This document shows, piece after piece, positions 1-59,400 of a stretch of 59,530 nucleotides of DNA; the stretch's first letter is position 1; each line of letters starts with the position of its first letter. The notes beneath the pieces were generated by a model that was not told where the DNA came from, did no database searches, and saw only the letters and a list, made by a program, of their open reading frames with translations. The stretch is taken from assembly GCA_947479085.1 (NCBI GenBank), contig CANJYB010000025.1, positions 1 to 59,530 on the forward strand, in the 5' to 3' direction. Position numbers and translations under genes: made by a program. The stretch comes from Bacteroidota bacterium. Lineage in GTDB: Bacteria > Bacteroidota > Bacteroidia > 2-12-FULL-35-15.

Positions 1-2097
1 ATATTTGATGTAGGCGGAGCTGTTACAACAATAGATTATAACAACAGCGAAGTAGTATATTACACCTCTTCTTCTTATGGAAGTGCATTACCAGCAAATG
101 GAGCAGGGTTTGTAAGTTATACCGGTCAAAAGTTTAATTACTGGATGAACATAACCTGCGGCTCAGGTGGTGGTGGAAACACTATTACATGTGCAGCAAA
201 TACAAACTCTTTTTGTACTGGTAGTTCTGTTTCGGTAGCTTATACTGCCACAGGAACATTTACTTCAGGAAATACATTTACGGCTCAATTGTCTGATGCA
301 AACGGAAGTTTTGCTGCTCCGGTTTCTATCGGTTCAGTAAGTGCTCTCACAAGCGGAAGCATTGGTGCAACATTACCTAACGGTACTGCAGCAGGAACGG
401 GATACAGAATCAGAGTGGTTAGCAGTAACCCTGCTACAACCGGTTCTGATAACGGAACAAATATTACTGTAAATGATTTACCAGTTGGTTCAGCATCTAA
501 CATTACGGTTTGTAACGGAGATCCCAGCAACCTGCCATTAAATTCTTCATTAACCGGAACCAGTTTTAGCTGGACATCCGCAGTAACTTTAGGCTCAATA
601 ATAGGTAATGGTTCATGTCCATCCGGTTGCGGAACCACTATTGCCGATGTATTGACCAACTTAGGAAACGTTCATGGAACTGTAGATTACACCATTACAC
701 CAATTTCTGCAGAAGGTTGTGTTGGTTCTCCATTTACTTCAGCAGTAACGGTAGGTGCAGCACCTGCACAACCAGTAATTACCGGCCCATCAGTAGTATG
801 TTTATTAAATACAGCCATTTATTCAGTAGCAGCAGTGCCTGAAGCAACCACTTATACATGGACCGTACCAACAGGAGTAACAGGAATGACTATTACTTCA
901 GGTCAGGGAACCAATACCATTCACGTAAACATATCAGCGGGGACTGTTGTTGGAAATGTAACCTGTACCGCTTCCAATTCATGTGGAAACAGCACAACAG
1001 CTATAATGGCTGTAACTAAAAAACCATCTGTGCCGGGACCTATCTCTGGTCCAAGTTCAGTTTGCGGACAGTCTACGGCAGCTTATTTCATTGCACCGGT
1101 ATTTGGGGCAACTTCTTATACATGGATAGCACCTGCTGGAATGACTATTACCTCCGGTCAGGGAACCTTAGCTATAACTGTATCAATGACAACCACATTC
1201 ATTTCCGGTTTATTAAAAGTATCAGCTGTAAATGCTTGTGGAAATATCCCGGGAACAGCATTGCTTGTAACTGGTAATGTTCCCGGAATGCCTCTTTCTC
1301 TTTCTGGTCCTGCCAATGTTTGCGGTATTACTTCAGCTACCTATTCGGTACCAGCAGTGGCAGGAGCTACTGGGTATAATTGGACAGTTGTTGGAGCAGG
1401 AACTATTGTAGGTTCAAATACAGGAACATCTGTTACCGTTGCATTAACAGGAACTTCAGGAGGAAGTATTTCCTGTCAGGCTACTAACGTTTGCGGAAAC
1501 GGAACAGCAAGAACAGTTAACCTTGTAGTAACCTCGCCTCAACCAGCTGCTATTTCAGGTCCAAACAGCATTTGCGGTTCTACTTCGGCTACTTATTCTG
1601 TTCCTTCCTTAGGTGTTGGATATACTTATAATTGGAGCATTACACTTCTTGGTTGGAGTATAACCTCCGGTAATGGAACAAACTCTATAACTATAAGTGG
1701 TCCGGCTACAGGAACAACTTCATCCGGATTGGTTAAGGTAACTTCATCTAATACATGTGGAATGACAAGTGCTTTCAGAACAATGTCTGTTTCTTATTGT
1801 CATGATGCAGTTGGAATGAATAATAGTATCAGTTCTAAAAACACCTTCTTCGGTTTATATCCTAATCCTGCTACTTCAGATTTTACAATTGATGTAACAT
1901 CGGAAATGGATAAGGAAATAACCATTGAGGTATATGATGTATTAGGTAACCTGGTAATTAATGCAAAACATCAATTGGTAAGCGGAACAAACAGTATGAA
2001 AACCAATATCCAGGATTTCGAAAACGGAATGTATTTCGTGAGATTATTGGATGTTGATTCAAATGTTCTTTATTCACAGAGGGTGATTAAACAGTAA
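1..2097 (+). CDS. T9SS-sorted PKD-like repeat protein, 3' part
   Basis: The reading frame is open from the first base, so the 5' end lies outside the window; the ATG at 145 is internal. The visible 698 residues are Gly/Ser/Thr-rich with repeated Ig/PKD-like modules of about 80-90 residues. Each carries a 'GPSSVCG / ATYSVPAV / YTWTVP / SGQGT' pattern and paired Cys, as in Bacteroidota surface adhesins. The last ~80 residues form a type A T9SS sorting domain: 'YPNPATSDFTIDV', then 'IEVYDVLGNLV', 'FENGMYFVRL' and a basic 'RVIKQ' end. I infer a secreted or cell-surface adhesin anchored after T9SS export; the ligand is unknown. A strong terminator follows 15 bp after the stop. Confidence 0.9.
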   Translation: MFDVGGAVTTIDYNNSEVVYYTSSSYGSALPANGAGFVSYTGQKFNYWMNITCGSGGGGNTITCAANTNSFCTGSSVSVAYTATGTFTSGNTFTAQLSDANGSFAAPVSIGSVSALTSGSIGATLPNGTAAGTGYRIRVVSSNPATTGSDNGTNITVNDLPVGSASNITVCNGDPSNLPLNSSLTGTSFSWTSAVTLGSIIGNGSCPSGCGTTIADVLTNLGNVHGTVDYTITPISAEGCVGSPFTSAVTVGAAPAQPVITGPSVVCLLNTAIYSVAAVPEATTYTWTVPTGVTGMTITSGQGTNTIHVNISAGTVVGNVTCTASNSCGNSTTAIMAVTKKPSVPGPISGPSSVCGQSTAAYFIAPVFGATSYTWIAPAGMTITSGQGTLAITVSMTTTFISGLLKVSAVNACGNIPGTALLVTGNVPGMPLSLSGPANVCGITSATYSVPAVAGATGYNWTVVGAGTIVGSNTGTSVTVALTGTSGGSISCQATNVCGNGTARTVNLVVTSPQPAAISGPNSICGSTSATYSVPSLGVGYTYNWSITLLGWSITSGNGTNSITISGPATGTTSSGLVKVTSSNTCGMTSAFRTMSVSYCHDAVGMNNSISSKNTFFGLYPNPATSDFTIDVTSEMDKEITIEVYDVLGNLVINAKHQLVSGTNSMKTNIQDFENGMYFVRLLDVDSNVLYSQRVIKQ

Positions 2098-2191: not shown

Positions 2192-2373
2192 GTACCAAAC
2201 TTTCCGGGAACAGTACCGAACCATTCGGTAATTGTACCCGACTGTTCGGGAATAGTAACGAAAGATTCGGTAAGTGTCCAGAACTTTCCGGAACCTATAC
2301 CGAAAAGTTCGGTAAGAGTCCCGAACTTTCCGGTAACACTCCCGAACTTTTCGGAACTCTTACCTAAAAGTAC
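2192..2373. repeat. 21-bp palindromic repeat array A
   Basis: About 8.7 tandem units start at 2192, 2213, 2234, 2255, 2276, 2297, 2318, 2339 and 2360, exactly 21 bp apart with no indels. The consensus is GTACCGAANNNTTCGGTAA plus two bases. The core CCGAANNNTTCGG is dyad-symmetric, and changes in one arm are often matched in the other. No ORF covers the array. It lies between the adhesin terminator and the DUF4290 promoter. Confidence 0.9.
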
Positions 2374-7469: not shown

Positions 7470-7658
7470 GGAAATTGAAATTTCCTTAATGTTGCGGAAC
7501 TGTTCCTTAACGTTGTGGAGGTTTTCCTTAACCTTAAGGAACGGTTTCTTAAGGGTACGGAACGGTTCCTTAGGCTTACGGAACTTTTCCTTAAGCTTCC
7601 GGAACTTTTCCGAACTAGTTCGGAAAAGTTCCGAACAGGTTCGGAAAGGAGGGGTAAA
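7470..7658. repeat. 21-bp palindromic repeat array B
   Basis: About nine units start at 7470, 7491, 7512, 7533, 7554, 7575, 7596, 7617 and 7638, all 21 bp apart. The consensus is near TACGGAACNNTTCCTTAAG, with a dyad core GGAAC-N-GTTCC. The last units drift to CGGAAAAGTTCCG, and inverted symmetry is kept while the sequence changes. The sequence differs from array A, but the period and architecture are the same. Confidence 0.9.
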
Positions 7659-24162: not shown

Positions 24163-24900
24163 ATGGGAAAGATAAGAGTAGGTGTTGCCGAAAGCGAAAC
24201 CATAGTACGCGAAGGTTTAATAGCGTTACTTAAAAACTCCAAAAAATACCTGGTCACCTTTGATGTGGAAACTACAAAGGAGGCTGTTAAAAGAATCGGT
24301 CAGCGAAAGACCGATGTGGTGCTTATTGGCTTCGAACAGCCTTTTATTATGCAGGTGCAGCTGATAAGTGAAATCAAGAAAAGACAACCGGAAATACGAA
24401 TTATTATGCTGGCCGCAGATGTAAGCATGATAATACTGAAACAACTGCAGGCTGCAGGTTTGGATGCAATGATATTTCGAAAAACTTCTTTCACCAACCT
24501 GGACAATGCCATCAGTAATGTGATGGAATACGGTGAGTGGTTTGACGATGATGAGTTTAATTTCCGAATGATGAAAAATGAGCAGGATGAGGAAAAATTT
24601 AACCTTTGGAGCAAAATGGTAATTACGGAACGCGAAAGGGAAGTGATGCTGCTGATTTGCGATGGGATTACCAATAAGGAAATAGCTGATAAATTATTTA
24701 TTGACGAACGCACGGTGGAAACCCACCGGGAACATATTTTTGAAAAAGTACAATGTAAAAATGCAGCAGAGCTTTCTGTATTTGCAGTAAATATGGGTTT
24801 TATTGATTTGCTGGATAAAAAGCCTAAAAACATCGAAAATCCGAATCCCGTAAAACCCAGGACCATTGTGGATTTTAACCGATTGTTAGGCTACTTTTAA
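24163..24900 (+). CDS. LuxR/NarL-type regulator with degenerate receiver domain
   Basis: 245 residues. The N-terminal receiver-like domain (1-125) keeps the fold pattern ('IVREGLIALLKNSKKYLVTF', 'AAGLDAMIFRKTSF' with the conserved Lys). The acidic pair is replaced by Ala-Glu-Ser (9-11), and the phosphoacceptor Asp is Gly56 in 'DVVLIGFEQP'. It therefore probably does not respond to phosphorylation. The C-terminal HTH (about 155-215) is intact: 'ITEREREVMLLICDGITNKE' and 'DERTVETHREHIFEKVQCKN'. No kinase is adjacent. A palindrome typical of LuxR-type operators lies 18 bp after the stop codon, upstream of array C. Confidence 0.88.
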   Translation: MGKIRVGVAESETIVREGLIALLKNSKKYLVTFDVETTKEAVKRIGQRKTDVVLIGFEQPFIMQVQLISEIKKRQPEIRIIMLAADVSMIILKQLQAAGLDAMIFRKTSFTNLDNAISNVMEYGEWFDDDEFNFRMMKNEQDEEKFNLWSKMVITEREREVMLLICDGITNKEIADKLFIDERTVETHREHIFEKVQCKNAAELSVFAVNMGFIDLLDKKPKNIENPNPVKPRTIVDFNRLLGYF

Positions 24901-25042: not shown

Positions 25043-25231
25043 TTCCTGGCGCCAGGGAAGGCTAAACTGGCTCCCTGAAATGATAAACTGGCGCTCTGAA
25101 AGAGTAAACGGGCTCCCTGAAATGATAAACTGGAGCTCGGAAAGAGTAAACTGACTCCCTGAAATGCTAAACTGGCGCCCGGAAGAATAAAACTGGCGCT
25201 AGGAAGGAGTAAACTGGCGCCCTGCCAGGTT
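25043..25231. repeat. 21-bp repeat array C
   Basis: Nine units at exact 21-bp steps (25043, 25064, 25085, 25106, 25127, 25148, 25169, 25190, 25211). The consensus is AAACTGGCGCCCTGAAA plus four bases. Alternate units end in ATGAT or AGAGT, so there is also a 42-bp higher-order pattern. The first unit contains the perfect palindrome CCTGGCGCCAGG and the last a CTGGC/GCCAG hairpin. It lies in the predicted 5' leader of the gene at 25320. No ORF spans it. Confidence 0.9.
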
Positions 25232-25319: not shown

Positions 25320-25946
25320 ATGCCTAGAAAACCGAAGATTAATACCAACTTCGATGATGAAAGCGAAGATGATTTTTACAAAAGTGTAAAACTCATGAAG
25401 CAACTGTTGACAGCCAACAGTGCTGATTTCACCGGGTTACCTATTGCAATGAACGCTTTTGGTACATTGATAGTAACTTTTGACGATAAACGCACAGCAG
25501 CGATTTATCCCGGCAAAGGAGCCGATACATCAGCTGCACGAACTGCGCTTCAAACCGCAGTGACTACTAATGGAGTTTGGCTCAATACATTTTGCAACGG
25601 AAATTTAACGCTGATTAAAAAAACGGGTTACCCGGTTGCAAAAGAATCTGAAGCACAAGGAAAACTGGAAGCTTCCGTTTTAACTTTAACTTTTTTAAAA
25701 GTGGCGGGAATTCTTGGGTTTTTAATTTCTCATGTTCCTGGAAAGGCCTTAAGATATGGTACCATGTACACTTTGGCCGATACTCCGGATAACAATCCCG
25801 CTAATTGGACTTTTTATTATGCAGCACAAAGAGATGGAGTAATAGGAGGTTTGGAAAGTAAAAAGGATTATAAAATGGTTTCATTTGCAATGGGTACAGA
25901 TAAAGATATTACATACAGCGACCCTGTGGTGATGTCGGCCCAGTAA
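25320..25946 (+). CDS. Helical + FnIII-like protein of unknown function
   Basis: 208 residues, no signal peptide. After an acidic N-terminus, residues ~20-120 form helices with 'KLMKQLLTANSADFTGLPIA' and then 'ARTALQTAVTTNGVWLNTFC' and 'GNLTLIKKTGYPVAKES'. The C-terminal half (about 130-208) resembles a small FnIII-like beta domain ('NPANWTFYYAAQRDGVIGGL', 'SFAMGTDKDITYSDPVVMS'). I know this architecture as a multi-copy Bacteroidota protein without assigned function. The gene at 52780 has the same layout. A decayed relative lies at 44815-45000. It has a long predicted leader containing array C and an A-rich stretch just before the ATG. Confidence 0.75.
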   Translation: MPRKPKINTNFDDESEDDFYKSVKLMKQLLTANSADFTGLPIAMNAFGTLIVTFDDKRTAAIYPGKGADTSAARTALQTAVTTNGVWLNTFCNGNLTLIKKTGYPVAKESEAQGKLEASVLTLTFLKVAGILGFLISHVPGKALRYGTMYTLADTPDNNPANWTFYYAAQRDGVIGGLESKKDYKMVSFAMGTDKDITYSDPVVMSAQ

Positions 25947-26174: not shown

Positions 26175-28187
26175 ATGAAAATAAAATATAATTTATTACT
26201 CGTGCTTTCTGTTCTATTGTTTTCGGGCTATTCGGCCCTGGGGCAGTTCAGTTTAAAAGTGGAAGGAACGGTGAAAGAAAACGGAAATGGAGTGGGCGGG
26301 GCTACTGTAAAGCTGGTGACAGACGAAACACAGGCCACCAAGGAAACCACCACCAGTTCGTCCGGTAGTTTTTCGTTCAGCCTGAAAGCCAGCGAAGAAT
26401 ACAGCATTTATGTTACCAAGGAAGGATACATTAAACCTAAAATATCGTATTCCACCATCGGGTTTTCGGACGAAGAAGCAAAAAAATTTAAAGGAAGTGC
26501 CACAGTGGATGTGGAAATATTTAAACTTCCGGAAGATGAAAAGCTAAAGGCAAAAATAAACGAGGCGTTTGAAAAGCCGATGATGAGTTATTTTTATAAC
26601 GCTGATAAAAGCGCCCTGGAGCCGGATGATGAAGGAAATGCTTCGATGCAAAAGGAATATGCCGACATGCTGGCCTTGGCCGATGATTTCAGAAACAGGT
26701 CCATCCCTATTGATACCAAATACAACAATGCCATGGCCAAAGGCGACAAAGCCTTTAACCTGAAAGATTACGAGGCGGCCAAAGATGGGTATAACGAGGC
26801 ATTGACTTTTAAACCCACCGAGCAAACCCCTAAAACAAAAATAGCAGAAGCAGAACGCTTAATAGCCATGGCTAAAGATAGCGAACGATTAGCGAAAGAA
26901 AAAGCAGCTGCTGATTTTGCAGAAAAAGAAAGGTTAGCAAAAGAAAAAGCATTGGCAGATGCAGCAGAGAAAGAGCGGTTAGCAAAGGAGAAAGCAGATG
27001 CAGCTTCATTGGCAGAAAAAGCAAGACTGGCCAAGGAAGCTGAAATGGCGGATGCCAAGGAAAAAGCAAGACTTGAAAAAGAAAAAGCAGATGCTGCATT
27101 GGCAGAGAAAGCAAGATTGGCCAAAGAACAGGGTGATTTAGCGGCTGCTGAAAAAGCAAAACAGGATAAGGAAAAGGCTGATGCTGCTGAAAAAGCAAGA
27201 CTTGCCAAAGAAGCTGAACTGGCCGATGCCAAAGAAAAAGCACGACTTGAAAAGGAAAAAGCAGATGCTGCATTGGCAGAGAAAGCAAGAGTGGCGAAGG
27301 AAGCCGCTGATGCAGCAGCAGCCGAGCGCGACCGCCTTGCAAAGGAAAAAGCTGATGCTGCTGAAAAAGTAAGACTTGCCAAAGAAGCTGAACTGGCTGA
27401 TGCTAAAGAAAGAGCAAGGTTAGAAAAAGAAAAAGCAGATGCTGCATTGGCAGAGAAAGCAAGAGTGGCGAAGGAAGCCGCTGATGCAGCAGCAGCCGAA
27501 CGCGACCGCCTGGCAAAGGAAAAAGCTGATGCTGCTGAAAAAGTAAGACTGGCCAAGGAAGCAGAACTGGCTGCAAAAGCAGAACAGGCACGATTGGATA
27601 AAGAAAAAGCTGATGCTGCAATTGCAGAGAAAGCTAGATTGGCAAAAGAAAAGGCAGATGCTGAAGCAGCCGAACGCGACCGCTTAGCAAAAGAAAAAGC
27701 CGCAGCTGATGCGATAGAAAAAGCAAGACAGGTAAGAGAAAAAGCAGTAGCTGACTCGATTGAAAAAATCCGTTTGGCAAAGGAGTTGGTGGAAAAAGCA
27801 TATAACGATAAGTATAACGGCTACCTTAACCGTGGCGATTCGGCCATCACTGCCAGCAATTATGAGTTTGCAAAAGTGGCCTTTAACGAAGCCATTAAAA
27901 TGAAACCGAATGAGGCGTATCCGAAAACAAGGTTAACCGACATTGAAACCATGATAGCCAATGATGCTTTGTTTAAAAACGAACTGGCTAAAAAATATCC
28001 GGTGGGTGTTACCGAAGAAAAGGTGAAGGAAGGTAACCTTAACATCACCAGACGTATTGTGGTTATTGGTAATAAAGGTTATTTGTACGAGAAAAAAGAA
28101 ACTACTTTTGGTGCCGTGTATTACGCTAAAGACGGAGTAACCATTACCGAAAAAGAGTTTAATAAAGATACAGAAGTAAAGAAATAG
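26175..28187 (+). CDS. Secreted coiled-coil protein with carboxypeptidase-like N-domain
   Basis: 670 residues. Signal peptide (1-23, ending 'YSALGQF'). A carboxypeptidase-regulatory-like beta domain (about 26-115) reads 'VEGTVKENGNGVGGATVKLV' and 'TTTSSSGSFSFSLKASEEYS'. A TPR-like hairpin (about 190-235) reads 'GDKAFNLKDYEAAKDGYNEA'. A long Ala/Lys/Glu-rich TolA-like coiled coil (about 236-535) follows with 'AEKARLAKE' repeats. A second TPR-like hairpin (about 555-595) has 'RGDSAITASNYEFAKVAFNE', then a C-terminal domain. It probably acts in the periplasm as a spacer or scaffold. There is no T9SS domain. A 174-bp tandem repeat lies inside. Confidence 0.8.
   Translation: MKIKYNLLLVLSVLLFSGYSALGQFSLKVEGTVKENGNGVGGATVKLVTDETQATKETTTSSSGSFSFSLKASEEYSIYVTKEGYIKPKISYSTIGFSDEEAKKFKGSATVDVEIFKLPEDEKLKAKINEAFEKPMMSYFYNADKSALEPDDEGNASMQKEYADMLALADDFRNRSIPIDTKYNNAMAKGDKAFNLKDYEAAKDGYNEALTFKPTEQTPKTKIAEAERLIAMAKDSERLAKEKAAADFAEKERLAKEKALADAAEKERLAKEKADAASLAEKARLAKEAEMADAKEKARLEKEKADAALAEKARLAKEQGDLAAAEKAKQDKEKADAAEKARLAKEAELADAKEKARLEKEKADAALAEKARVAKEAADAAAAERDRLAKEKADAAEKVRLAKEAELADAKERARLEKEKADAALAEKARVAKEAADAAAAERDRLAKEKADAAEKVRLAKEAELAAKAEQARLDKEKADAAIAEKARLAKEKADAEAAERDRLAKEKAAADAIEKARQVREKAVADSIEKIRLAKELVEKAYNDKYNGYLNRGDSAITASNYEFAKVAFNEAIKMKPNEAYPKTRLTDIETMIANDALFKNELAKKYPVGVTEEKVKEGNLNITRRIVVIGNKGYLYEKKETTFGAVYYAKDGVTITEKEFNKDTEVKK
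27171..27518 (+). repeat. 174-bp in-frame tandem repeat
   Basis: Two nearly identical 174-bp (58-codon) units at 27171-27344 and 27345-27518 begin GAAAARGCTGATGCTGCTGA. A partial third copy starts at 27519. It encodes the Ala/Lys/Glu coiled coil, so copy number would change rod length without shifting frame. Confidence 0.85.
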
Positions 28188-44814: not shown

Positions 44815-45000
44815 TTACAAAGGGCGCGCAGTTATCGGGTGGCTATACGTTAAGTCGGTGGAGGTACCCATTGCAAATGAAGCAAATTTATATTTTTCAT
44901 CACTTGTCAAATCAATAATACTGCCATCGCGATGAGCCGAATAGTGATTTTTTGTTTGTTTTCGGATGCCATTGTTATTTGTTTTTAAGTAAATGTATAT
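44815..45000 (-). pseudogene. Remnant of a 25320-type helical/FnIII-like gene
   Basis: A minus-strand frame without a start codon encodes about 61 residues. Its end matches the C-terminus of the protein at 25320: 'KFASFAMGTSTDLTYSHP' against 'KMVSFAMGTDKDITYSDP', preceded by 'HYSAHRDGSI' against 'YYAAQRDGVI'. The frame is closed upstream by TAG at 45001-45003, and the helical N-terminal half is missing. Array D begins about 40 bp upstream in the gene's own orientation, as array C does for the intact gene. This is a decayed copy that kept its association with an array. Confidence 0.75.
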
Positions 45001-45041
45001 CTAACTGTTTTTTAAAAGACTAATTTTTTATCCTTTTCAGG

Positions 45042-45218
45042 TTCGCTGATTGCCTAGGTATTCTTTTCTTAAACAAACTTGCCCTCGCTGACCGGCTAAC
45101 TATGTTTTTCTTTTATTTTATCTGCCTCGCTGAGTGGCTAACTACAAATTTCTTTACATTTTTCGACCTCGCTGACTGCCTAGATACAAATTTCTTTAGA
45201 AATATCGAGTTAGGCAGT
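45042..45218. repeat. 42-bp (2 x 21) repeat array D
   Basis: Four units of a CCTCGCTGACTGCCTA-like core are spaced exactly 42 bp apart (CG of TCGCTG at 45044, 45086, 45128, 45170). They alternate with T-rich 26-bp spacers (TACAAATTTCTTTA). The last core, ACTGCCTA, pairs with TAGGCAGT at about 45211-45218 in an inverted repeat with an inner AAATTTC/GAAAT. The period is twice that of arrays A, B, C and E. It lies directly upstream of the 44815 remnant. Confidence 0.8.
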
Positions 45219-51273: not shown

Positions 51274-51409
51274 AGGAAGTGAATTTCATACGCTTATATT
51301 CCGCTTTTTTTAATTGGCAGTTTTTTGGGTAAAACAGCAGATAACTTATCTTTTGTCCCTGGATGAAGAAGCAAACTTTAAAGCAAAATTTTTCTGTAGA
51401 GCACATACT

Positions 51410-51680
51410 GAACTCAGTGGAGCACATCGTGAACTCAGTGGAGCACATTGCGAACTCAATGGAGCACATCGTGAACTCAATAGAGTATATCGTGAACTCA
51501 GTGCAGCACATCATGAACTCAGTGCAGTACATCGTGAACTTAGTGGAGACATCATGAACTTAGTTCAGCACATCGTGAACTTAGTGCAGCACATCGTGAA
51601 CTCAGTGGAGAACATCGTGAACTCAGTCTAGCACATCTTGAACTCAGTCTATGATGTCTTGAACTTAGTCCGGGGGAGGG
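51410..51680. repeat. 21-bp repeat array E
   Basis: Thirteen units of GAACTCAGTGGAGCACATC plus two bases start at 51410, 51431, 51452, 51473, 51494, 51515, 51536, 51556, 51577, 51598, 51619, 51640 and 51661. All steps are 21 bp except one of 20 bp (unit at 51536). Each unit has the small dyad ACT-N-AGT. Because 21 bp is seven codons, three frames stay open and read as heptads such as VEHIVNS; the 20-bp unit breaks each of these frames. Confidence 0.92.
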
Positions 51681-56416: not shown

Positions 56417-59400
56417 TTATTTAATTATTACCGCTCTTTGATTATAAACATTTGTATCAGTAGTTAAACGGATGAAGTAAATACCCGATTTAAGCTCGTC
56501 TACATTGAAATTAACACTGTAGTTTTCGCCTGCATTGGCTCCACCGTTGTAAATCCTGTTAATCAAATCTCCATTTACATTGTACACTTCCACTGTTACT
56601 TTTGAATCGTAATTTAATGAGTATTCAATGGTAGAGTTATCAATCATCGGATTAGGATATACTTTTAAGTTTCCTCCTAAATCAGGAGTAGCAGTATTAT
56701 CCTGGTTATCCATAGCTATTGGAGAATGACCTGCAACGGCAGGACAAGCTAGGTTTCCGTTGTTCACAGTTCCGTTGTCATAGTTTTGATTCACCATATC
56801 AATTGCTGCATTTACATCAGAAGGAGAATACGTAGAACATCCGCCCAATGCTTTGTTTCCTTCAACCAATAACTGATTAACAGTCATTCCTGCAAAGGTT
56901 CCGTTGGTTATAACCAGGTTTCCTAAAGCAATGGTTGATGAAGAGAAAGCCGCATTGTTGGCATCAAAAGTTACATTTAATTTCAGAGCTACCACTTGTC
57001 CGGCTAATGTATTATTTACATTTGTTGGATTCAAAATGTTACTACTGTTTGTTAATGCAGCCGGAGTACCAGAAGATGGCAGGAAATTATCCACAGCCAA
57101 AGCAGATGACAGTCTGATAAAACGACCGCATGCACCTATTACTAAACCTGAAGGGAAAGATGCAGCAAAGTTAGTATTACGGTAACATCCCCAGTTATTT
57201 CCACTACAGTTTGCACCCCAGCCACCTTGTGTAACTGTTGTAAATCCCTGACAAGCATTCAACTTAATCTTAACGGTTCCGCTTACAGAGCATCCTTTAG
57301 CATCCGTTACAGTAACTGTATAAGAACCGACAGAAAGAATTGCTGTAGCAGTAGTTTGAACAGGGTTGCTGTTCCAGCTATATGAATATGGAGCAGTTCC
57401 ACCAGTTACAGAAGCGGTTGCAGATCCAGTTCCTCCATAAGTTGTAGCATTAACCACATTTATAATTGAAAGTGCAAGGGCATTTGGCAGAGATATAGTT
57501 ACTGTTCCAGTTGCAGCACATCCTGAAGTAGTAGTCACAGTTACTGTATAAGTACCTGCACCTAAGTTAGAGATAGTAGAAGTAGTTGCACCAGTTGACC
57601 AAAGTATAGAACTACCAGCAGCAGAAACTGTACCAGAACCATTGTGACCACCGTTACAAGATACGTTGGTTGAAGAAATGCTTACAACCGGTAGTGGATT
57701 AACAACAATATTGATTGTATTAGAATTTGCATGACATCCGTTTGCATTTGTTCCAACTACTGAGTAGCTACCAGAAGCGTTTACAGTAATTGAAGCTGTA
57801 GTAGCACCGTTTGACCATAAGTAAGAAGTACCACCGGTTGCAGTTAAAGTAACTGAACCACCAGCACATAATGTAGTTGATCCGCCAGCCGTGATAGTAA
57901 CCACAGGCAATGGATTAACAACAACATTGATTGTATTGGAAGTTGCATGGCATCCGTTTGCGTTTGTTCCAACTACTGAGTAGCTTCCTGATGCGTTTAC
58001 AGTAATTGAAGCTGTAGTAGCACCGTTTGACCATAAGTAAGAAGCACAACCTGCAGCAGTTAAAGTTACAGAACCGCCAGCACAGAATGTTGTAGGTCCA
58101 CCAGCAGTGATAGTAACAACCGGAAGAGGATTAACAACAACATTGATTGTGTTAGATGTATTAGTACAACCGAAACCACAAGTACCAACTACTGAATAGT
58201 TACCAGAAGCAGATACTGTTATAGAAGCAGTAGTAGCACCATTGCTCCATAAGTAACTAACACCACCTGTAGCAGTTAAAGTTACAGAACCACCGGCACA
58301 GAAAGTTGTAGGACCGTTAGCAGTAATTGCTATTGAAGGCAATGGAACCGTAGTTACAGCAACAACATTTGAACCGGAAGTACAACCATTAACATTAGTA
58401 CCTGTTACAGAATAAGAACCTGAAGCATTAACTGTTATAGAAGCAGTAGTTGCGCCATTGCTCCATAAGTAAGAAGTAGCACCTGTTGCTGTTAAAGTTA
58501 CTGAACCACCGGCACAGAAAGTATTAGGGCCGTTAGCTGTTACAGCAACAGTTGGTAAAGGATTTACAGTTACAGTAATTGCATTAGAAGCATTGTTACA
58601 ACCAAAAGCACAAGTACCAACTACGGAATAAGAACCAGAAGCAGAAACTGTGATAGAAGAAGTAGTAGCACCATTGCTCCATAAGTAACTTGAACCACCG
58701 GTAGCAGTTAAGGTAACCGAACCACCAGCACAGAATGTGGTAGGGCCGTTAGCTGTAACAGCAATAGTAGGTAAAGAAATCACATTGACAGCGATAATGT
58801 TTGAACCAGCGTTGCAACCATTTCCATTAGTACCAACCACAGAATAAGAACCTGAAGCATTTACAGTGATGGAAGAAGTTGTTGCTCCGTTAGACCACAA
58901 GTAAGAAGTAGCACCTGTTGCAGATAAGGTAACTGAACCGCCAGCACAGAAAGTAGTTGGTCCGTTTGCAGTTACAGCAACATTAGGAATAGGATTAACT
59001 ATTTTAGAAACAATGTTAGACTCTCCTGTAAAAGAAGAACAACCAGTGCTACGAGAACAACGTAAATAGTATGTTGATTGGGTAATTGTTCCAGTAGGAG
59101 CATAACTAGGTCCATTAGCACCTGGAATTACCACCCAACCACTGTTACCATTATTTACCACGTTAACAGTGTTCCATAACCATACATACTGAACAGTACC
59201 TAAACCACCAGAAGGGTTAGCAATACTAACAATAGTAGAAGGAATATAAGGTCCGCAATGAGCTTCATCATTTCCGATAGAACCAGGGTTAGTAACCTGA
59301 CAACAAACCGGACGAGCAATAGAAACAGGAGCAGAAGTTGCAGAACAACCATTAGCATCGGTAACAGTTACTGAATACGTACCATCACCTAGACCTGAAA

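Follow-up and report, generated by a model that had tools for sequence, protein, structure and literature searches.

A truncated gene and its tandem repeat array in a Bacteroidota contig are a decayed copy of a conserved gene/array module

The remnant and its array

A truncated gene lies beside a short tandem repeat array in a contig that also carries an intact gene of the same family behind another array, which raises the question of whether array and gene are linked. The window, the whole stretch of DNA analysed, comprises the 59,530 nucleotides of contig CANJYB010000025.1 of a Bacteroidota bacterium. Its features relevant to the question are the following.

44815..44972, minus strand: truncated family gene, start region and last ~43 residues, in different frames (tblastn, profile; best relative L010)
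45030..45215, minus strand: array D, 42-bp period, immediately 5' of the remnant (TRF 45083-45198, score 132; 64% identity at lag 42)
25320..25946, plus strand: intact gene of the family, encoding 208 aa with a helical N-terminal part and a fibronectin-III sandwich, both predicted (structure model)
25063..25224, plus strand: array C, 21/42-bp period, ending 96 bp before the 25320 gene (TRF, lag test)
24163..24900, plus strand: LuxR-type response-regulator-like gene, 5' of array C (Pfam GerE 2.9e-18, Response_reg 3.6e-9)
2198..2354, unstranded: array A, 21/42-bp period, without a family match within 1.5 kb (TRF)
7482..7647, unstranded: array B, 21-bp period, without a family match within 1.5 kb (TRF)
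51399..51669, unstranded: array E, 21-bp period, without a family match within 1.5 kb (TRF)

A tblastn search of the window with P0001, the product of the 25320 gene, recovers P0001 itself and a single clear match at 44946-44833 of the minus strand (55% over 38 residues, E 1e-8); the next-best match has an E of 0.35. A profile of 29 family members hits the same place with an E of 2.4e-12. The sequence-only reading, which had recognized here a remnant of the carboxyl terminus of the 25320 protein, is borne out by both searches. The remnant retains an ATG at 44972 followed by a short start, has lost its middle, and continues with a C-terminal part in a different frame up to a stop at 44815. Its closest relative among the 58 family proteins is L010 of another genome, G034 (70% over 43 residues); it therefore belongs to another family branch and did not arise recently from the 25320 gene.

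Array D was correctly placed directly upstream of the remnant, in the remnant's own orientation. TRF delimits its period of 42 bp at 45083-45198, and over 45030-45215 the identity is 64 and 56% at lags 42 and 84, values reached by 0/500 shuffles. Array C has identities of 70, 82, and 74% at lags 21, 42, and 63 (0/500 shuffles). The two arrays had been proposed to share a period in multiples of 21 bp: the 42-bp period of array D agrees with this, but D has no 21-bp sub-period, its 14% identity at lag 21 lying under the 28% expected by chance. They also differ in sequence, as claimed, with a profile similarity of 0.38 compared to 0.30 in shuffles. Together, the remnant and array D (44815-45215) form a decayed example of a conserved gene/array module. 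Arrays A, B, and E have neither a family gene nor a remnant within 1.5 kb.

Other repeats are found in the window. The gene 3' of the intact family gene (26175-28187, plus strand) carries long coiled-coil-like tandem repeats of 45-174 bp, and a large protein gene at 56417-59161 (minus strand) has 216-bp tandem repeats inside. The segment 48690-49478 (plus strand) codes for a 262-aa lysine/alanine-rich repeat protein, which we take to resemble histone H1/Hc1-like DNA-binding proteins.

Arrays upstream of the gene family

Arrays called by TRF with periods in multiples of 21 bp (score and length of at least 60) are found within 700 bp upstream of 48 of the 58 family members and of 15/297 control genes (p 5e-36). 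The controls are other genes of the window's own genome, G000, counted when no gene intervenes; dropping that condition gives 16/297. The own genome alone has an upstream array in 19/25 members. In a first set of 31 loci, from which two remnants and one locus with too little upstream sequence were left out, all 28 intact members beat all 200 shuffles at lag 21. Ordinary upstream regions are thus not the norm in this family, and the functional or evolutionary link suspected from two pairs in one window receives strong support.

The ten members without an array call are heterogeneous. Seven of them (L003, L023, L052, L053, L211, L222, and L179, the last a 433-aa ORF and doubtful member) have a weak signal above 200 shuffles at lags 21/42/63, L067 has a period of 20 bp, and L212 and L226 have neither an array nor a lag signal upstream. 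The median array length is 201 bp, possibly clipped in genomes that are mostly draft or MAG assemblies, and a typical array ends ~100 bp before its gene, distances being rough as the most upstream ATG was taken as the start. The arrays of L213, L216, and L219 lie 530 bp or more from the gene. At L032, a 303-aa protein of a different kind (335-1246, minus strand) has an array 289 bp upstream. Small proteins of other families made only of a fibronectin-III (FN3) domain were also inspected: L180 and L192 have no array, while L181 is borderline (lag 63 reached in 0/100 shuffles, no TRF array). Small protein families besides the FN3-like one may be array-linked too. The association of array and gene, which is seen in several families of the phylum, is well supported; we infer the function of the arrays below. 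Searches of an open-access library turned up no description of this association.

The protein family

P0001 (208 aa) belongs to no Pfam, NCBIfam, or PHROG family, none of the FN3 models of Pfam and NCBIfam match it at E<=10, and nine more members or related proteins give no hit above a Pfam family's cut-off. The AlphaFold2 model of P0001, computed with 29 relatives, has helices up to residue 100 and an FN3 sandwich at residues 121-206 (pLDDT 88.8, pTM 0.53). The matches listed by Foldseek for this model against the PDB are FN3-type domains (best E 4.8e-5), and the fold search including the helical part returned nothing besides FN3. The family proteins are thus predicted to combine a helical part with an FN3 β-sandwich fold. 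FN3-like proteins are near neutral, with median net charges of +1 and +3.5 in two sets, and their charge does not suggest direct binding to DNA.

Relatives of P0001 are present in 9/59 near genomes, its own counted. The wide profile A3 detects 28 places at E<=0.1 in the own genome, including the remnant and fragments at contig ends, and it also finds full-length members in a small number of other families within the phylum. It is positive in 23/395 genomes, many of these hits being FN3 stretches within long proteins. The named close relatives are Bacteroidetes MAGs. Collections of phages, plasmids, and viral contigs hold no relatives of P0001 or A2, and a phage, plasmid, or viral origin is rejected on this basis.

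Sequence turnover and duplicated modules

Every array has a private repeat unit. Unit similarity is near background in most pairs of members; in the 16 pairs with more than 60% protein identity, units exceed the 95% level of unrelated arrays in only 38%, and most pairs have unrelated units even at 66-76% protein identity. Four duplicated pairs localize this divergence: identity is 83-93% in the upstream flank and 80-93% on the gene side, compared to 64-74% for the arrays between them. Array identity is 72% in L028/L030, 74% in L209/L210, 64% in L012/L019, and 72% in L065/L066, against 63, 72, 66, and 65% after shuffling, and is at the shuffled level in two of the four pairs. The array regions of L065/L066 align without gaps, their units having changed in concert, although a small upstream ORF stayed nearly unchanged. 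The duplicated segment of this pair is ~2.45 kb long, with sharp ends, and finishes 5 nt past a stop codon.

Whole-module duplication is found at L065/L066, L028/L030, and L209/L210, which upholds the duplicating half of the earlier idea of a mobile or duplicating unit; a simple mobile pair of array and gene is disfavoured, as 18/25 arrays stand alone (see the next section). That array and gene move as one cassette, whose leftovers are the decayed copies and lone arrays, appears unlikely to us. The sharp-ended duplicated segments and the patchy distribution over 9/59 genomes speak in its favour. So do six contig ends of the own genome that fall within family genes (C13:1, C23:1, C38:1, C49:1, C9:1, and the C12 end), suggesting that near-identical copies break the assembly. 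Remnants in both G000 and G015 fit it as well; that of G015 (C15:67356-67487, minus strand; L018, L174) keeps the family C-terminus with no array beside it. Also in its favour, the G015 locus syntenic to that of array D, with its multicopper oxidase gene, has no family match, and the ORF before the array-bearing family gene of L057 (131-745, plus strand) matches IS200-type transposases (Y1_Tnp, E 5.8e-9; a hit of the A5 scan assigned to L057 by sequence). However, an array sequence largely unrelated between sister copies cannot be a sequence-defined mobile end, and private arrays leave no common recombination site. Inspection of the ends of the four duplicated pairs by eye or BLAST revealed no shared ends. 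Neither a target-site duplication nor a terminal repeat in common was established, nor was any signature of a transposase or target site. The lack of relatives in the phage, plasmid, and viral-contig collections and a regulator-array-gene order kept in three genomes also argue against a cassette.

Arrays away from the family

A 400-kb sample of the own genome contains 20 arrays of 21-bp-type period, 19 of them intergenic, and 3 intergenic arrays of other periods. The 19, which include a few family-linked arrays, extrapolate to ~200 per genome. Of 25 arrays (20 from the sample and 5 from the window), 18 have no family match within 1.5 kb, and several lone arrays sit between convergent genes. 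Given the 18/25 without a match, we reject the view that lone arrays derive from family genes that have died.

Arrays nevertheless follow the family at the level of genomes. Family-negative relatives, defined by no P0001 match at E<=1e-3, have 0 intergenic arrays in 657 kb from 15 genomes (335 kb from five and 322 kb from ten); one array, in G024, overlaps coding sequence. At least one array occurs in the sample of 9/13 positive genomes, sampled on contigs carrying family genes, and four have none (p 1e-4). The intergenic region after pyrG illustrates the turnover of arrays. There, G000 and G005 have a common spacer that leads to the same TonB-receptor-like gene; both carry an array in it, and the two array sequences are unrelated. 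G015 also has an array after pyrG, and none is found there in the positive genomes G004, G014, and G012 nor in nine negative ones. The strongest unexplained facts of this system are the abundance of lone arrays and a sequence turnover specific to each array.

Period, symmetry and upstream genes

Array periods are mostly 21 bp, with 20 bp in L067 and 20.5 bp in L209 and L210. This range fits about two turns of B-DNA and does not fit codons. Inverted-repeat (dyad) symmetry of the units, measured against permuted unit columns, is present at p<=0.05 in 22/49 arrays (combined p 3e-20), comprising 13/27 gene-linked arrays and 9/22 others; mirror symmetry, used as control, gives a z of -0.03. Several units are loopless palindromes, a form that would favour a dimeric DNA-binding protein over a hairpin.

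It is doubtful that the arrays are functionless by-products of slippage and gene conversion which came to lie before these genes. Their abundance genome-wide, 19 intergenic arrays per 400 kb, and their rapid turnover are what such processes would give, and no binder would be needed; the strong placement bias toward one gene family, the fixed period combined with dyad symmetry, and the scarcity of other-period intergenic arrays (3 in the same 400 kb) are at odds with it. A reading of the array as RNA, or as a peptide of heptad repeats (21 bp equalling 7 codons), seems very unlikely to us: at least one frame is open in 43/49 arrays (null 38.8), with a mean of 2.20 open frames versus 1.69, and the dyads would form small hairpins, but dyad symmetry coupling the strands may account for the excess of open frames, an Rfam search of the window finds no family, and the periods of 20 and 20.5 bp break every frame, for which heptad coding is rejected as a general reading.

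A protein binding the arrays might be encoded next to them. The order of regulator, array, and gene at the array C locus, with its LuxR-type regulator, is kept in G004 and G005, where the regulator is 32-37% identical and PyrG 95-96%. LuxR-type homologues elsewhere have an array at 0/21 loci. In 34/57 family loci the array is immediately preceded by a co-directional ORF of 50 aa or more, and many of these small ORFs look HTH-like by eye. The 34 ORFs were scanned as two Pfam sets, 23 judged less spurious by eye and the 11 remaining (for the latter, the best 25 of 30 families). Among the matches listed, at least 9/34 have a DNA-binding Pfam domain at E<=0.05 and 25/34 are without. At E<=1.8e-5 the count is 6/34, three of the six being orthologues, against 0/33 control ORFs (p 0.013; 34 were drawn and one family member excluded), for which the best 25 of 53 families were seen, so that weak HTH matches are possible there. 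A neighbouring regulator is thus the feature of a subset and not the rule. We reject the idea that each array serves an HTH gene beside it as operator, as Pfam backs 9/34 and NCBIfam and profile comparison rescued no others. A Bacteroidetes-type promoter between array and gene is found at 3/54 loci at p<=0.1, about chance, and a Gibbs search picked up only a weak word resembling TTTTGG, close to the end of the array (information 9.5 versus 8.0 in shuffles).

Proposed role of the arrays

The reading we favour, with a probability of roughly 0.45, is that the arrays are phased sites for a dimeric protein which controls the downstream gene, and that their sequence turns over in concert. The module would consist of an array (median ~200 bp), with repeats about two helical turns apart (20-21 bp), placed ~100 bp before a gene for a putative helical and FN3 protein. 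The array would act in cis as DNA, presenting dyad-symmetric sites in a row on one face of the helix, and a dimeric protein might occupy these sites cooperatively to control the downstream gene. Where the gene just upstream is of LuxR, sigma-region-4, or LytTR type, as at a minority of loci, it is the obvious candidate for encoding the binder. Selection would act on the spacing, while the base sequence would drift and be homogenized within the array to give each locus its own version. Counting against gene control are the absence of a promoter signal, regulators that are not the rule, the array-less L212 and L226, the L065/L066 pair, in which the units changed beside a nearly constant upstream ORF, and the near-neutral charge of the FN3-like proteins. 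It also does not account for most arrays, since 18/25 are apart from the family and several lie between convergent genes.

Comparison with known systems

In plasmid iterons and ParR/parC-type centromeres, direct repeats spaced by about two turns lie upstream of a gene, and a single protein binds them along one helix face, recognizing a single conserved unit. The 20-22-bp direct repeats described here resemble them; unlike them, units vary by locus, and we noticed neither a Rep nor a Par gene next to the arrays. Compared to phase-variable VNTR promoters, the promoter signature between array and gene is at chance level. Compared to MITE and REP-type elements, whose copies share terminal inverted repeats or sequence, array units are private (ends inspected by eye or BLAST in the four duplicated pairs).

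BrickBuilt of Porphyromonas gingivalis, a minisatellite-bearing MITE, shares with our arrays the phylum Bacteroidota and intergenic direct repeats of ~23 nt; its copies are defined by common terminal inverted repeats and leader and tail segments (PMC4596501). Our arrays differ by their individual units, and no shared ends were found. The tandem repeats of archaeal Borgs are the nearest published phenomenon found. Their description reports many arrays per genome, a unit unique to each array, quick turnover, and intergenic units of ~20 nt, as seen here; it also reports perfect units of varied length, about half of them in ORFs, carried by extrachromosomal elements (PMC9879509). Our units are imperfect (TRF percent matches mostly 55-98), 19 of the 20 arrays in the 400-kb own-genome sample are intergenic, and the period is fixed at 20-21 bp in arrays tied to one protein family.

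Eukaryotic satellite DNA keeps its unit length while the unit sequence changes fast and in concert. The arrays behave likewise, although they are short, bacterial, and placed before genes of one family. We give limited credence to a wider proposal, a bacterial satellite-DNA system in which the FN3-like proteins, or else a partner confined to the genomes that have them, would coat or rewrite phased 20-21-bp arrays across the chromosome. The register would be kept and the sequence would be private and fast-changing, so that duplicated modules could be addressed one by one or could no longer recombine among themselves.

The near-obligate pairing links an undescribed protein family to DNA conserved in spacing and not in sequence. 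If the arrays are bound, they would represent a new kind of regulatory or chromosome-organizing element; if they are rewritten, they would provide a bacterial model for the concerted evolution of satellites.
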